Origin: Thalassobius vesicularis
Lineage (GTDB): Bacteria > Pseudomonadota > Alphaproteobacteria > Rhodobacterales > Rhodobacteraceae
NCBI RefSeq assembly: GCF_004799325.1
Contig: NZ_SSMD01000002.1
Coordinates: forward strand, 186,001 to 250,000
Length of the DNA: 64,000 nt
Reading direction: 5' to 3'
How positions within the stretch are numbered: the first letter of the stretch is position 1; each line of letters starts with the position of its first letter. The translations under genes were made by a program, and so were the position numbers. The notes under the pieces are model-generated. The model was given only the letters and a program-made list of their open reading frames with translations. It had not been told where the DNA came from and searched no databases. Positions 12,773 to 19,034 of this stretch are shown piece after piece.

Positions 12773-14719
12773 ATGGCAGACGTCACCCTTACCTTCCCCG
12801 ATGGCAATTCGCGCGTGTTCCCCGCCGGGATCACCCCGGCCGAGGTGGCCGAGGGCATCTCGAAATCGCTGGGCAAGAAAGCCATCAGCGCCAGCGTGAA
12901 CGGCGCGCATTGGGATCTGCAGTGGCCGATCAATGCCGATGCGAAAATCGCCATCCACACCATGCAGGACGATGACGAGGCGCTGGAGCTGATCCGCCAC
13001 GACCTGGCGCACATCATGGCGCGCGCCGTGCAGGAAATCTGGCCGGACGTGAAGGTCACGATCGGGCCGGTCCGCGATCAGGGCTGGTTCTATGACTTCG
13101 ACCGCGAAGAACCGTTTACCCCCGAAGATCTGGGCCAGATCGAAGCGCGAATGAAAGAGATCATCAACGCGCGCGAGGCCGTGAAAACCGAGGTCTGGGA
13201 CCGCGCCCGCGCGATCAAGCACTATGAGGACGCCGGCGAGCCCTTCAAGGTCGAGCTGATCGCCCGCATCCCCGAAGGCGAGGATCTGCGGATGTACTGG
13301 CACGGCGACTGGCAGGATCTGTGCCGCGGCCCGCACTTGCAACATACCGGCCAGGTGCCGGCGGATGCGTTCAAGCTGACCCATGTTGCGGGCGCCTACT
13401 GGCTGGGCGACAGCACCCGCCCGATGCTGCAACGCATCTACGGCGTGGCCTTCAAGAACCGCCAGGACCTGAAGGCCTGGGAAACCATGATGGAAGAAGC
13501 CGCCAAGCGCGACCACCGCAAGCTGGGCCGCGAAATGCAGCTGTTCCACATGCAAGAGGAAGCGCCGGGCCAGATCTTCTGGCACCCAAACGGCTGGCGC
13601 ATCTACACCACGCTGCAGGACTACATGCGCCGCCAGCAGCAGCGCGACGGCTATGTCGAGGTGAACACCCCGCAGGTGGTGAACCGCAAGCTGTGGGAGG
13701 CCTCGGGCCACTGGGACAACTACCAGGAAAACATGTTCATCGTCGAAGTGGACGAGGATCATGCCCGCGAAAAGACCGTCAACGCGCTGAAGCCGATGAA
13801 CTGCCCTTGCCACGTGCAGGTGTTCAATCAGGGCCTGAAATCCTATCGCGACCTGCCGCTGCGCATGGCCGAGTTTGGCTCGTGCAACCGGTATGAGCCC
13901 TCGGGCGCGCTGCACGGGATCATGCGGGTGCGCGGGTTCACGCAGGACGACGCGCATATCTTCTGCACCGATGCGCAGATTGAATCGGAAACCAAGAAGT
14001 TCATCCAGTTCCTGGCCATGATCTATGCCGATCTGGGATTCCACGACTGGACGATCAAACTGTCCACCCGCCCCGAAAAGCGGATCGGGTCCGAGGAAAG
14101 CTGGGACCGGGTCGAAAAGGCCCTGGGCGACGCGTGCAACGCGGCTGGCTACGAGTACGAGATCCAGGAAGGCGAAGGCGCGTTCTACGGGCCCAAGCTG
14201 GAATTCACCCTGACCGACGCCATCGGCCGTCAGTGGCAATGCGGCACGCTGCAGGTTGACCCCAACCTGCCGGACCGTCTGGACGCGAACTTCATCGGTC
14301 AGGACGGCGCAAAACACCGCCCCGTCATGCTGCACCGCGCAGTTCTGGGCAGTTTCGAGCGTTTCATCGGCATCCTGATCGAAAGCCACGCCGGCAAGCT
14401 GCCGTTCTGGCTGGCCCCGCGTCAGGTGGTCGTTGCCTCGATCGTGTCGGAAGCGGACGCATACGTGCACGAGGTGGTCGCCAAGCTGCAAGCCGCAGGC
14501 ATCCGCGCCGAGGCCGACACCCGCAACGAGAAGATCAACTACAAGGTCCGCGAACACTCGCTGGGTAAGGTGCCGGTCATTCTGGCCATCGGCGCCCGCG
14601 AAGTGGAAGAGCGCACCGTGTCGATGCGGCGTCTGGGCGAAAACCGCACCAGCACCGTGGCACTGGACGAGGTGGCCGTCACGCTGGCCGCTGAATCGAC
14701 CCCGCCCGATCTTCGCTAA
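12773..14719 (+). CDS. thrS: Threonyl-tRNA synthetase
   Basis: The 648-residue class II synthetase charges tRNA-Thr. It has the TGS domain at the start ([18 protein letters not shown]), the second additional/editing domain with an [12 protein letters not shown] histidine block (about residues 85-240), the catalytic core with [33 protein letters not shown] and [13 protein letters not shown], and a C-terminal anticodon-binding domain. The length is normal. AGGAGG lies 6 bases ahead of ATG 12773. The frame extends 10 codons further upstream, but those lack a ribosome-binding site. Its end overlaps the convergent membrane protein gene by 41 bases. Confidence 0.97.
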
Positions 14720-15827
14720 GCTTTGGGCGACGCGGCGCTGCGATCATGGCAGCGACCGCGTCGCGCACCGGGGCATAGCCGCGCCGCCAAAGCGCGGGCA
14801 AGCCCAGCCCCAGCCGGTTGCGCGCCTCGCGCCCGGCCACGGCCAGAACCAGCAGCCCCCCCAGAAACAACGCCGCCACCGGGATACCCAGCCAATGCGG
14901 GAGCGCCTGGTAGGGCAGCAGGTTCAGCACCAGATTTCCGGCCCCGTAGATGAACAGCGTCTGGACACCGACGCGACCCAGCCAGCGCCGGACGCCACGC
15001 AGCGCCCCTGCCCGTTTCAGCACCGCCAGCCAGGCCAGCATGCCGCAGGCCGCCACGGTGCCCACGGCGAAATAACCGGGGTGATTGGTCCAGCGATGCG
15101 CCAGGAACCGGCGACCGGCCTCTAGAATGCCGTGCTGCAACTCCAGCCCGACGACGACCAGCGCCAGCCCGACCAACAGCGCCGGCAGGATGGCGCTGCG
15201 ACGGCCCGTCAAAGCCTCGCCCAGGGCCATACCGAAGCCCAGAAAGGTCAGGCCGGGCAGGATGGCCGGGCCGTAGCCCTGACCAATGCCCAACAGGAAG
15301 CCCACGATATAGGGCGGTGCCTCGACCACCGGGGTGAGCACCCACCACATCCCCCAGCCGAGCGCCGCGCCGATCAGCACCAGCGTCGAGCCGTGCCGCA
15401 GCACCCCGCGCCAGAACAGCAGGATCAGGGCAAACAGCGCCGCGTAGGTCAGGAAAATCTCGCTGAACCGCCCCTGCACCAGGCATAGTGCCGCGCGCAG
15501 CCCCGTCAGGGGATCAAGGTTGCCCGATACGACCGCCCCGCCGGTCAGCAGCAGGAACAGCAGGGCCACCGTCACCAATCGCTGCGCCATGCGCCAGCGC
15601 AATGTCTGGGCCGAGCCGCCGTCGCGGGCAGAGGAGAGATAGGCGATCTCGATCATCGCGCCGAAGATGATGATGAAGGTGGGCGTCGCCAGCCGCGTGA
15701 GCGGCACCAGCACATGGACATCGGTGACGAATTGCACCTTCACATGGTCCAGCATCGCCAGAATGATGGCGACCCCGCGCAACTCATCGAGCGCGTCAAA
15801 GCGGCGTTTGGCTCCGGTTTTAGACAT
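14679..15827 (-). CDS. Multi-pass membrane acyltransferase-like protein (DUF1624/OpgC type)
   Basis: The 382-residue protein has about ten hydrophobic helices. Its opening [25 protein letters not shown] has the R-x-x-x-x-D-x-x-RG-x-A-x-x-x-x-x-x-x-H pattern of DUF1624 (heparan-alpha-glucosaminide acetyltransferase-like) and OpgC-like membrane acyltransferases. These move acyl groups onto sugars at the membrane. I chose ATG 15827 (MSKTGAKRR), because the open frame upstream of it has a poor, arginine-rich composition. It converges on thrS with an unusual 41-base coding overlap. No sugar or cell-wall genes are nearby, so its acceptor is unknown. Confidence 0.65.
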
Positions 15828-16207
15828 CCTCAAGTGCCTTTCATCCTGCGGTATGTCTAGCAGACCCGACGCCTCGCCGGGCAACGGAGACGGGTAGAAC
15901 ACCGTCACGGACGGATACACCGCCCCCCCGAAATGGCTGACACATCTGTCACGAAACGCTTGGCCCGCCCGCTTTGCTGCCTGACCCGCTGTAACAATCG
16001 GCGAAGACAGAGACGCCGCGCGACGGAAACCCCGCTTTGGGCCGTAACATTTCGGCGAAAACCCGCGCATCGGCTCACGCCGGTCACACGCCTGCTGACG
16101 CGGGCGTGATGCACGGGCCTGTGAGTGGCTCGTTATGCGGACTGACCCTAGCCTTTTGGATACCGGCAACGACCGGACCGAGTTTCAAAAAGGAAAGGGA
16201 AACACAC
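15828..16207. other. 380-base divergent intergenic region upstream of the bufferin cluster
   Basis: No gene is convincing here. It must hold the promoters of the membrane acyltransferase-like gene and of bufA. A small inverted repeat, TGACA-CATC-TGTCA (15938-15951), could be an operator, and a good Shine-Dalgarno (AAAGGAAAGGGAAA) sits before bufA. Bufferin operons are often under ECF sigma or metal-responsive control, but I could not identify a convincing -35/-10 pair. Confidence 0.5.
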
Positions 16208-16519
16208 ATGTCTAACGCACTGAAAACCGCCGCTGTCGCTGGCGCTCTGGCCGCCGCTCTGACCGCTCAATTCGCCCCCGCCGCCAACGCGGCCGGTCAG
16301 GAAAAATGCTATGGCGTCTCGATGGCGGGCAAGAACGATTGCGCCGCTGGCCCCGGAACCACCTGCGCCGGCACCTCGACCGTGGACTACCAGGGCAACG
16401 CGTTCAAACTGGTCGACGCAGGCACCTGCATGTCGATCGAACTGCCCGCCATGATGGACGGCACCATGCGCAAAGGCAGCCTGACCGCACTGGAACGCGA
16501 CCTGCCGATGAAGGGCTAA
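16208..16519 (+). CDS. bufA1: Bufferin precursor, BufA1/DUF2282 family periplasmic metallophore
   Basis: The 103-residue protein has an alanine-rich signal peptide (cleavage likely after about residue 28, AANA-A) and a short mature part with exactly four cysteines at 34, 45, 53 and 74. These lie in the blocks [19 protein letters not shown] and KLVDAGTC, the pattern of DUF2282/BufA1 precursors. In this recently described RiPP class the partner MNIO enzyme modifies cysteines, and the exported product binds excess copper or another metal. The downstream DUF692, DUF2063 and DoxX genes complete the known cluster. The start at 16208 has AAAGGAAAGGG upstream. Confidence 0.9.
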
Positions 16520-16528
16520 CCCACTGAC

Positions 16529-16556
16529 GGGGCGGGGTTTTCCCGCCCCATCCTTT
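16529..16556 (+). terminator. Hairpin between bufA1 and bufB (terminator or attenuator)
   Basis: A perfect 8-bp stem GGGGCGGG / CCCGCCCC with loop GTTTT lies 9 bases after the bufA1 stop, followed by ATCCTTTGCC. The T-run is weak, so partial read-through is likely, which would give more precursor mRNA than enzyme mRNA. Confidence 0.6.
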
Positions 16557-16572
16557 GCCTGATAGGTGCCCC

Positions 16573-17412
16573 ATGTTCGACCACCCCACCCACCTGCCTG
16601 CCGGTCCCGGCGTCGGTTTCAAGCCACAGCACTACGCGGATATCCTGGCCCATCCCGGCCCGGTCCAATGGCTGGAAATCCACGCCGAGAACTACATGGG
16701 CGACGGCGGCCGCCCGCTGGCGATGCTGCGCCACCTGGCGGAGCGCTTTGCCATTTCGGTGCACGGCGTCGGCCTGTCCATCGGCGGCGAAGGCCCGCTG
16801 GACCCCGCCCACCTGGCCCGTCTGAAACACCTGTGCGACTGGCTGCACCCGGCCAGTTTTTCCGAACATCTGGCCTGGTCCACGCACGGGGCCGAGTTCC
16901 TGAACGACCTGCTGCCCCTGCCCTACACCGCCGCCACGCTGGCCCGCGTCTGCGATCACATCGATCAGGTGCAAGAGGTGCTGGGCCGGCGGATGCTGCT
17001 GGAAAACCCCTCCTCGTACCTGCGCTTCGCCGCCTCGACCTGGGAGGAGCCGGAGTTCCTGTCCGAGATCGCGCGCCGCACCGGCTGTGGGCTGCTTTTG
17101 GATGTGAACAACGTCTTCGTCTCGGCCACCAATCTGGGCACCAACCCGCGCGCCTATATCGACGCCTATCGCACGGATCTGGTGGGCGAAATCCATCTGG
17201 GTGGGTTCGACGAGGATGCCGATGACGTGGGCGCCCCCCTGCTGATCGACAGCCACGGGCGTCCAGTGGCCGATCCGGTCTGGACCCTGCTGGAATACGC
17301 GCTGGCGCAGACCGGGCCGAAACCGATCCTGATCGAGTGGGACAATGACGTGCCCGACTGGCCCGTTCTGGCCGCCGAGGCCGCCCGCGCCGCCGAAAGG
17401 ATGCCCGCATGA
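16573..17412 (+). CDS. bufB: Bufferin maturation enzyme BufB, MNIO (DUF692) family
   Basis: The 279-residue protein is a TIM-barrel multinuclear non-heme iron oxidase. Likely metal ligands are visible: Glu/His in [10 protein letters not shown] (His37, Glu39), His64 in SVHGVGLS, His99 in SEHLAWS, Glu144-Asn145 in LLENPSSY, Asp177 in LLLDVNNV, His208 in EIHLGGF, Asp226 and His228 in LIDSHGR, and Glu255 in LIEWDND. MNIO enzymes use iron and O2 to modify cysteines in a peptide precursor; here the precursor is BufA1 upstream. ATG 16573 follows AGGTGCCCC. It overlaps bufC by 4 bases (ATGA). Confidence 0.9.
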
Positions 17413-18134
17413 CCCGCCAAACCACATTCCACGACGCGTTGCGTGACGCGGGCCGGCCGGTGCCTCCGGGGTTGCTGGACCGCTGGGGCAACAGCGCGGG
17501 CAAGCGGTTCGACGTCTATCGCAACAACGTCACCCTGTCGCTGATCGAGGCGCTGCGCGACGGCTTCCCGGCCACCGCCGCCCTGCTGGGCGAGGCGAAT
17601 TTCTGGGCGATCGCGCGGGGCTTTGTGGCTGATCACGCGCCCAAATCGCCGCTGATGTTTTTGTATGGTGACGCGTTTTCCGCGTACCTGACCCGGGTCC
17701 GGCCGCTGGCGCATCTGGGCTATCTGCCCGATGTGGCGGCGCTGGAATGGCAGATGCGGCTGGCCTATCACGCCGCCGATGCCTCCCCGGTCACGGCGGA
17801 CCGCCTGACGCCCGAAACCCTGCTGAGCGCCCGCTTCGGCTTCGCGCCTGCGGTGCGGCTGATGCGCTCGGACTGGCCGGTCGCGGCAATCCGGGCCTAT
17901 GCGCTGGGGGATGGCCCCGCACCCACGGGCGGGGCGCAATCGGTGCTGATCACCCGGCCCGAGTATGACCCGGTGCTGACCGTGCTGGCCGAACCGCAAG
18001 CCGCGTTGATGGAGGCGCTGATGACTGGCCAGACCCTGACCGATGCACTGCAACCCGACGCCGACCTGCCCGCGTTCTTGACGCTGATCCTGCAACAGAA
18101 CGCCTTGATTTCATTGATATCGGAGGACGAATGA
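17409..18134 (+). CDS. bufC: BufC, DUF2063 partner of the MNIO enzyme
   Basis: The 241-residue protein has the DUF2063 N-terminal helical domain (about residues 5-95), with the characteristic [29 protein letters not shown] and a following [26 protein letters not shown]. In bufferin clusters this protein is thought to bind the precursor leader and deliver it to BufB. The old database label 'putative DNA-binding domain' should not be taken literally. It is translationally coupled to bufB and to the DoxX gene by ATGA overlaps, which suggests fixed stoichiometry. Confidence 0.88.
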
Positions 18135-18709
18135 TGACCCGCGCCCTGACCCTCTATCACGATCTGACCGCCCGGCTGGAGGCCGTCGACTGGCTACTGC
18201 CGACGCTGGCGCGGTTCCTGTTCGGCGCGGTGCTGGCGGGGTATTTCTGGGCCTCGGGCCTGACCAAGCTGGGCGACGGGCCGCTGGGGCTGTTCATGCC
18301 CTCGACCGGGGCCTATGCACAGATCTGGCCGCGCGTGTTTGAATCCGTGGGCTACGATTCCGACCAGCTGGGCCTGCACCACTGGGCCGTTGTGGTCGCC
18401 GGAACGGTGGCCGAGTTCGCCCTGCCCGCGCTGATCCTGCTGGGGCTGATGACCCGTCTGGCGGCGCTGGGGATGATCGGGTTCATCACCGTGCAATCGC
18501 TGACCGACCTCTACGGCCATGGCGGGATCGAGCACGCGGCAACCCTGGGTGCCTGGTTCGACCGCCTGCCCGACGGCGCGATCCTGGACCAGCGCGCGTT
18601 CTGGATGCTGGCGCTGGTCACGCTGGTGGTGAAGGGCGCGGGGCCTGTCTCGGTGGATGCGGTTCTTAGAAATGGGCCTTTGGCTCGTCCGGTTTCCCGG
18701 CCGCAATAG
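18131..18709 (+). CDS. DoxX-family membrane protein of the bufferin cluster
   Basis: The 192-residue protein has four hydrophobic helices and the DoxX pattern: ARFLFGAVLAGYFWASGLTKLG in helix 1, then AEFALPALILLGLMTRLAALG. DoxX proteins are often the fourth member of bufA-bufB-bufC clusters and may serve redox or quinone-linked roles in the inner membrane; the exact function is not known. Two adjacent ATG codons (18131 and 18134) could start it. The first overlaps the bufC stop. The 3' end overlaps the convergent 122-residue membrane protein gene by 44 bases. Confidence 0.83.
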   Translation: MMTRALTLYHDLTARLEAVDWLLPTLARFLFGAVLAGYFWASGLTKLGDGPLGLFMPSTGAYAQIWPRVFESVGYDSDQLGLHHWAVVVAGTVAEFALPALILLGLMTRLAALGMIGFITVQSLTDLYGHGGIEHAATLGAWFDRLPDGAILDQRAFWMLALVTLVVKGAGPVSVDAVLRNGPLARPVSRPQ

Positions 18710-19034
18710 CCAGCAAGCCGCCCAACGCGCAGAAGCCAATCGGAAACATGGTGAAGACGTTGAAGTGGAATGCGTGGTACATCCCCGCCGCCGACAGCAG
18801 CATCAGCACCCCGCCCCACAGTGCGCGCGATTTCGCCATCGCGCCGCCCGCCAGAGCCAGAAGCGGCGCAAAGAAGCTGGCCGTCCGGATCAGCTGCACG
18901 TCATCCACCTGCGCGAACATGCCGTCCACCTCGCCCCAACGCTCGATCACCTCGGTGTAGCCGTAGCTGAAAAAGCCGACCAACATGCCGATCAGACCGC
19001 CGATCAGGCCAAGAACAAGGGCTGCGTTACGCAT
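18666..19034 (-). CDS. Four-helix membrane protein of unknown function
   Basis: The 122-residue protein starts ALVLGLIGGLIGMLVGFFSYG and shows four hydrophobic helices (about residues 4-24, 50-66, 70-88 and 94-113), with one polar loop (EVIERWGEVDGMFAQVDD) after the first. The last 15 codons overlap the DoxX gene on the opposite strand. I do not recognise the family with confidence. The glycine-rich helix starts and absence of catalytic residues suggest a structural or stress-related membrane protein. Confidence 0.65.
   Translation of the reverse strand: MRNAALVLGLIGGLIGMLVGFFSYGYTEVIERWGEVDGMFAQVDDVQLIRTASFFAPLLALAGGAMAKSRALWGGVLMLLSAAGMYHAFHFNVFTMFPIGFCALGGLLAIAAGKPDEPKAHF

Follow-up and report, generated by a model that had tools for sequence, protein, structure and literature searches.

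We analysed a 64,000-nucleotide (nt) stretch of the Thalassobius vesicularis genome (contig NZ_SSMD01000002.1, positions 186,001 to 250,000 of the forward strand; hereafter the window), with a focus on four consecutive genes that make up a predicted bufferin cluster and on a hairpin lying between the precursor gene and the first enzyme gene. All positions are those of the window, and the locus comprises the following features:

16208..16519, + strand: bufA, Buf1 bufferin precursor (DUF2282), 103 amino acids, Cys 34/45/53/74; PF10048, 84.7 bits (cut-off 22.4)
16529..16549, + strand: intercistronic hairpin with 8 G-C pairs, a 5-nt loop (GTTTT) and a U-poor tail, ATCCTTTG; found by folding, recurs in the family
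16573..17412, + strand: bufB, MNIO bufferin maturase, 279 amino acids; PF05114 (MbnB_TglH_ChrH), 344 bits; NF050167, 375 bits
17409..18134, + strand: bufC, DUF2063 partner protein, 241 amino acids; PF09836, 78.2 bits (cut-off 27.2)
18131..18709, + strand: bufD, DoxX family protein, 192 amino acids; PF07681, 33.4 bits (cut-off 23.6)

Because the family models and the gene order agree, the genes at 16208-18709 were assigned to the Buf1 class and are taken to be a complete canonical bufferin operon, bufABCD, in line with an earlier reading of this DNA (hereafter the original prediction). All four proteins, BufA to BufD, exceeded their Pfam cut-offs, and BufB also exceeded the NCBIfam equivalog cut-off for MNIO_BufB ('MNIO family bufferin maturase', NF050167; 375 vs 310 bits); BufC and BufD scored below the cut-offs of the NCBIfam models HvfC and HvfX. 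The four cysteines previously claimed for the precursor were recovered and are invariant in 12 aligned precursors, and the BufA N-terminus, looked at for a Sec signal peptide in the alignment, is alanine-rich and hydrophobic. In BufB, H, E and D residues fall in blocks aligning with solved MNIO structures, and these residues are the presumed ligands. Conversion of central cysteines to thiooxazole and copper binding are traits of the Buf1 class and would be predicted for this peptide. The host genome holds a single match each for MNIO and DUF2282. Judged by its predicted genes, this marine bacterium's cluster is by itself an ordinary one for a copper-binding peptide (bufferin), and it contains the published cluster core, i.e. 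precursor, MNIO, DUF2063 and DoxX (PMC12452194; for this and all other papers cited, statements refer to the parts of the text available).

The original prediction had all genes coupled by ATGA overlaps. This holds for bufB/bufC (at 17409) and bufC/bufD (at 18131), but the bufA stop and the bufB ATG (16573) are 53 nt apart, without an ATGA overlap, and the hairpin lies in this gap. The predicted 8-bp GC stem with a weak T tail is indeed present at 16529-16549 but is unremarkable by itself: when the 71-nt stretch was shuffled 200 times, 17 of the shuffles were equally stable (whole-fold z -1.48), and the best single stem-loop reached p 0.03 against 100 shuffles. As regards intrinsic-terminator criteria, the G+C-rich stem is present and the T tail is weak (4 T of 8), and the hairpin is missing from the output of a terminator scan of the window that requires 5 or more T of 8. 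Taken alone, it is thus unexceptional and constitutes weak evidence. Two further identities were tried and rejected, i.e. a known RNA family (the sole Rfam match reached 18.3 bits, far under the gathering score of 82) and a dispersed repeat (the hairpin pattern with at most 2 mismatches occurs at 8 places, vs 28 for the reversed control).

Recurrence of the hairpin and conservation of its stem

A total of 140 loci (L003-L142) was examined, i.e. 70 of 77 listed places and 70 loci out of 152 positive genomes, and both bufA and bufB were located in 137 of them. We left out L068 and L071 (bufA not found upstream), L127 (bufB not found, short contig end), L035 and L135 (misplaced bufB starts; a hairpin is visible by eye in both of these uncounted gaps) and the duplicates L092 and L100. 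The final comparison set consisted of 116 loci of the window's family (Rhodobacteraceae) and 17 loci from other families of the class. A hairpin was scored in relatives as a stem-loop of -12 kcal/mol or lower within the first 100 nt of the bufA-bufB gap; those of the tandem-precursor loci (L027, L106 and L113) were judged by eye. A named-genome set of 80 loci was also used, reduced to 79 by L209, which has no bufA in the DNA taken. Background gaps came from 20 stretches of 20 kb from family genomes and from the window, with genes called by our own script, which recovered the buf-region genes.

Such a stem-loop stands right after bufA in 111 of the 116 family loci, compared with 1 of the 17 loci from other families, where gaps are shorter (median 28 vs 70.5 nt) and leave less room for a hairpin. 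The family stem-loop reached a shuffle p of 0.05 or lower in 106 of the 116 loci and of 0.01 or lower in 83, and the lone case outside the family (L061) gave p 0.07. Among the five family misses, L020 and L043 have long bulged stems instead, L106 and L113, with two precursors in tandem, carry the hairpin after the first, and only L049 has no hairpin. The named genomes gave the same picture, with a hairpin in 78 of 79 loci (69 of 70 among those not counted before) and one weak case, L231, which folds as a long bulged stem. Stems of -15 kcal/mol or lower were found in 95 of 98 bufA-bufB gaps of 50-130 nt and in only 17 of 62 same-strand background gaps of that length; the corresponding counts were 21 of 56 for background gaps of 130-400 nt and 20 of 34 for convergent gaps of 50-130 nt, read on both strands. 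It is this recurrence in relatives, together with the contrast with background gaps, that makes the window hairpin significant.

The hairpin is also present in all 13 loci with a SigF-type promoter, described below with the promoter region. A BufB tree of 77 rows, in which operator-type loci were thinned to about one in three and the bootstrap had not settled, splits the family into a mostly SigF-type and a mostly operator-type group; the hairpin therefore spans both. Family rows group together in this tree, except for two long-branch rows from outside.

Stem sequence varies widely between genera. In 14 close pairs, each locus being used once, stem positions showed 13 substitutions in 324, as against 94 in 823 elsewhere in the gap, and stem conservation is thus clear.

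Some loci depart from the usual arrangement. When the loci are turned with bufB on the + strand, L106 (about 1110-1304) and L113 (about 1110-1248) carry the hairpin between tandem bufA copies, and their second precursor sits tight before bufB, as if expressed at enzyme level. Another tandem locus, L027, has its hairpin after the second precursor, with none seen between the two. In four congeneric loci (L006, L008, L013 and L016), the bufA-bufB gap extends to 195-251 nt and holds several hairpins as well as a common TTAAGAGT stretch, possibly an internal promoter or an inserted element.

Decay barrier, weak termination or copper switch

The hairpins following the threonyl-tRNA synthetase gene (thrS) of the same loci, which are presumed true terminators and are present in 72 of 75 thrS loci, served as a matched control. 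Stem energies are similar (median -20.8 kcal/mol for thrS vs -21.6 for the bufA hairpin) and the tails differ: T and C make up 0.45 and 0.18 per position after thrS, as compared with 0.27 and 0.43 after the bufA hairpin. In 70 paired loci, bufA tails hold 1.34 fewer T (p=1.7e-4) and 2.0 more C (p=2.5e-9) per 8 nt, and TTTT occurs within 10 nt of 23/72 thrS hairpins vs 9/72 bufA hairpins.

The bufA hairpin combines several traits of decay barriers, i.e. a stable intercistronic stem, a U-poor tail and a stem start at a median of 11 nt after the bufA stop. Rhodobacter capsulatus belongs to the same order of bacteria as the window's host. In this species, an intercistronic hairpin of puf acts as a decay terminator, and the resulting segmental mRNA stability sets protein ratios (PMC5927463, PMC6238624); in Rhodobacter, this stability contributes to the ratio of light-harvesting to reaction-centre complexes (PMC6238624). 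The genes differ, and decay protection is established for puf and would be predicted for buf from its sequence. In Escherichia coli, no uridine tract follows the hairpins in which stabilized operon segments end; those of the malEFG type resemble the buf hairpin in being stable, placed directly after the upstream segment and devoid of this tract (PMC5927463), although they were mapped by Term-seq and decay data. The U-poor tails, the protective hairpins of E. coli and the puf precedent together lead us to rank a decay barrier first and weak termination second.

We thus propose that the Buf1 operon carries an intercistronic hairpin that fixes the ratio of precursor to enzyme as a puf-type mRNA-decay barrier, a reading that could well be right and just as well be wrong. 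A single promoter near the operator at 16096-16128 would give a bufABCD mRNA. Once its bufBCD part had been cut or had ended prematurely, the hairpin after the bufA stop would shield the upstream bufA segment from 3'-to-5' exonucleases. A stable bufA-only mRNA would then build up, as reported for the puf intercistronic hairpin in Rhodobacter, and the metal-binding precursor, presumably needed stoichiometrically, would be made in excess over the catalytic enzyme. The comparisons suggest a fixed stoichiometry element that yields more peptide than modifying enzyme; the higher abundance of bufA mRNA, and decay protection as the route to it, are what we infer. The original prediction that the hairpin sets an excess of precursor is strengthened in so far as recurrence, background gaps, tails and stem substitution argue for a selected element, while the excess itself is still deduced. 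Its description as attenuator-like is one option; given the few U in the tail and the example of puf, a decay barrier is at least equally favoured.

Several points weigh against the decay barrier. TTTT is found in 15 of 111 bufA hairpin tails and in only 23 of 72 thrS tails, and since few TTTT occur even after thrS, the weakness of the bufA tails is one of degree. The E. coli study (PMC5927463) had set aside gene pairs with terminator motifs at the outset, so that the missing U tract in that set is partly by design. In L106 and L113, the second precursor is on the downstream side of the hairpin together with the enzyme genes. Covariation is weak, and equivocal over the 506 looser pairs: among the close pairs of loci, 10 stem pairs had changed and 7 of these can still form, 2 of them by double change, compared with 26 of 53 in four slid controls together; in the looser pairs, double changes keep pairing in 0.60 vs 0.42-0.49 in slid controls and single changes in only 0.19 vs about 0.40, although the alignments are unreliable. 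This weak covariation and the shuffles of the window's 71-nt stretch (17 of 200 folding equally well) also suit the view that GC-rich intergenic DNA folds by chance or that the hairpin is a relic, a functionless origin that we regard as the least probable of all explanations in view of the 111/116 recurrence, the rarer substitutions in the stem and the different counts in background gaps and in other families. A tentative second explanation is a weak intrinsic terminator (a loose attenuator), at which most transcripts would stop while a minority reads into bufBCD, with the same precursor excess. Stem energy equal to that of the thrS hairpins, 9-14 pairs in 105 of 111 stems and the 15 TTTT tails are consistent with it, as is a mean composition with C over G from the bufA stop to +140, which could also allow Rho-assisted termination. 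The tails nevertheless have significantly fewer T than those of the thrS hairpins, and that of the window (4 T of 8) is below the scan threshold.

A regulated hairpin is less probable still. A dedicated regulator at the tandem TSACR-N4-YGTGA sites upstream of bufA could act together with a hairpin whose read-through or decay answers copper or unmodified precursor, matching enzyme to demand, which we consider unlikely. Even more doubtful is a nascent-chain copper switch of the CutF/CruR type, in which a stall at the BufA C-terminus would open the hairpin or block Rho and copper would control the enzyme genes. CruR works via Rho (PMC9426467), and in R. capsulatus the Shine-Dalgarno sequence of cutO is shielded by the cutF-cutO stem-loop, for which a proline-rich CutF motif is required (PMC9973294). 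The likeness of buf to cutF-cutO, i.e. a small exported cysteine-containing protein upstream (Cys-rich), then a stem-loop, then a copper-related gene, speaks for such a switch, together with a C-terminal motif confined to the family:

16496-16507, + strand: RD[LI]P motif at the BufA C-terminus, shared by 91 of the 116 family BufA and by none of the 17 others

A CutF-type switch nonetheless fits badly as judged from the loci compared. A Shine-Dalgarno-like sequence precedes bufB in 103 of 111 loci (none was found in 8) and lies inside the stem-loop in 0 of these 103, unlike the shielded cutO site; in 109 of the 111, 15 nt or more separate the end of the stem from the bufB start. The window BufA ends in RDLPMKG, without PP or the RAPP motif, i.e. 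with no counterpart of the proline-rich stall motif. All 25 family BufA without RD[LI]P (11 with a near variant such as RDVP, RDM or NLP, and 14 without any) keep a hairpin of -17 kcal/mol or lower; in L106 and L113, RDLP stands at the end of the second precursor, which no hairpin follows. RDLP as a required stall motif was rejected.

Promoter region, neighbouring genes and meaning of the hairpin

Two putative promoter elements were recognised upstream of bufA:

16096..16128, + strand: putative conserved operator TSACR-N4-YGTGA-NN-CACG-N4-YGTGA-NTGG, here TGACGCGGGCGTGATGCACGGGCCTGTGAGTGG, shared upstream of bufA in the family
16149..16154, + strand: putative -10 element TAGCCT (TAnnnT), its spacing from the operator conserved

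A match to the operator seed at 11 or more of 12 bases occurs in 66 of the 116 family loci and in none of the 17 from other families, as compared with 2 of 580 shuffles; the seed was derived from the loci in which it was counted, with shuffles and outside families as controls. A weight matrix gave 85 of 116, a count that is partly circular, as some of these loci also served to build the matrix. The -10-like TAnnnT shows up as column enrichment at about +44 to +49 of 78 aligned upstream regions. For the three tandem loci, palindrome positions were measured anew, starting from the first precursor. In the host genome, only the bufA copy matches the seed exactly, and the 19-nt seed with 1 mismatch occurs at 20 places vs 5 for the control. 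The 24-nt pattern with at most 1 mismatch is present in 45 of 149 family genomes (34 once, 11 twice) vs 7 control matches; not all of these places were classified, and one recurrent extra sequence resembles conserved coding DNA by eye. The regulon search in the host genome and these 149 genomes did not find the regulator. Outside the family, 2 of the 17 loci have one TCACG-N4-CGTGA palindrome at 9 or more of 10 bases, a higher rate than in shuffles, and the palindrome may thus not be limited to the window's family.

Thirteen relatives (L029, L039, L047, L050, L052, L053, L073-L077, L119 and L136) carry a divergent SigF-type extracytoplasmic function (ECF) sigma factor gene beside bufA; the ECF-like gene of the one tested among the 13 has sigma-70 regions 2 and 4. 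GTAAC-N15-18-CGWM precedes bufA in 13/13 of these loci vs 11/103 others. NrsF was found in the 13 corresponding genomes, within a few kb of buf by coordinates, and in none of 13 other chosen family genomes, including that of the window. A TCACG-N4-CGTGA-like palindrome lies 4-6 nt upstream of GTAAC in 12 of the 13 SigF-type loci, so that one regulator may act with both operator-type and SigF-type promoters.

The same four families in the same order form the Buf1 (DUF2282) operon CC3254-CC3257 of Caulobacter (PMC3511200, PMC8224329, PMC12452194), which is under the ECF factor SigF and the negative regulator NrsF (PMC3511200, PMC8224329), unlike the window with its palindromic operator. A SigF-type promoter was rejected for the window: the host genome has no NrsF match, GTAAC-N15-18-CGWM is absent from the 400 nt before bufA, and the best SigF-type site there has 2 mismatches, such sites occurring in the window at chance frequency (GTAACC-N16-CGAA with at most 3 mismatches, 376 occurrences vs 354 expected).

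On both sides of buf, the neighbourhood contains genes on the other strand:

14679-15827, - strand: weakly OpgC-like gene (below the Pfam cut-off), between thrS and bufA
18666-19034, - strand: open reading frame without Pfam or NCBIfam match, overlapping the bufD 3' end by 44 nt

Among the 80 named loci, the latter runs convergently to bufD in 66, and an ArsC/Spx gene on the other strand from buf is present in 77. The suggestion that these two add to metal or thiol stress was not borne out, as they are only other-strand neighbours of widely conserved position. An upstream gene was called in 114 family loci and belongs to the same-strand thrS group in 75 of them, and the window's copy carries threonyl-tRNA synthetase domains; in the window, unlike these 75 loci, the OpgC-like gene intervenes. 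Conserved neighbours, with thrS on the other side, fit vertical inheritance of a chromosomal segment, and the thrS-buf-neighbour region looks like an inherited chromosomal block.

The buf hairpin was not found in the bufferin literature, where coverage was partial and the hairpin could be published: 'terminator' is absent from the available parts of PMC12452194, PMC5413113 and PMC13097082, and 'hairpin' and 'attenuat' from those of PMC12452194. The operator offers a handle on possible bufferin induction where SigF/NrsF is missing. Keeping the stoichiometric precursor of a ribosomally synthesized and post-translationally modified peptide in excess over its catalytic enzyme, as proposed here, is rarely traceable by comparative genomics. 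As the position of the hairpin is kept across a large family while its sequence changes, the idea is testable in many culturable marine species.

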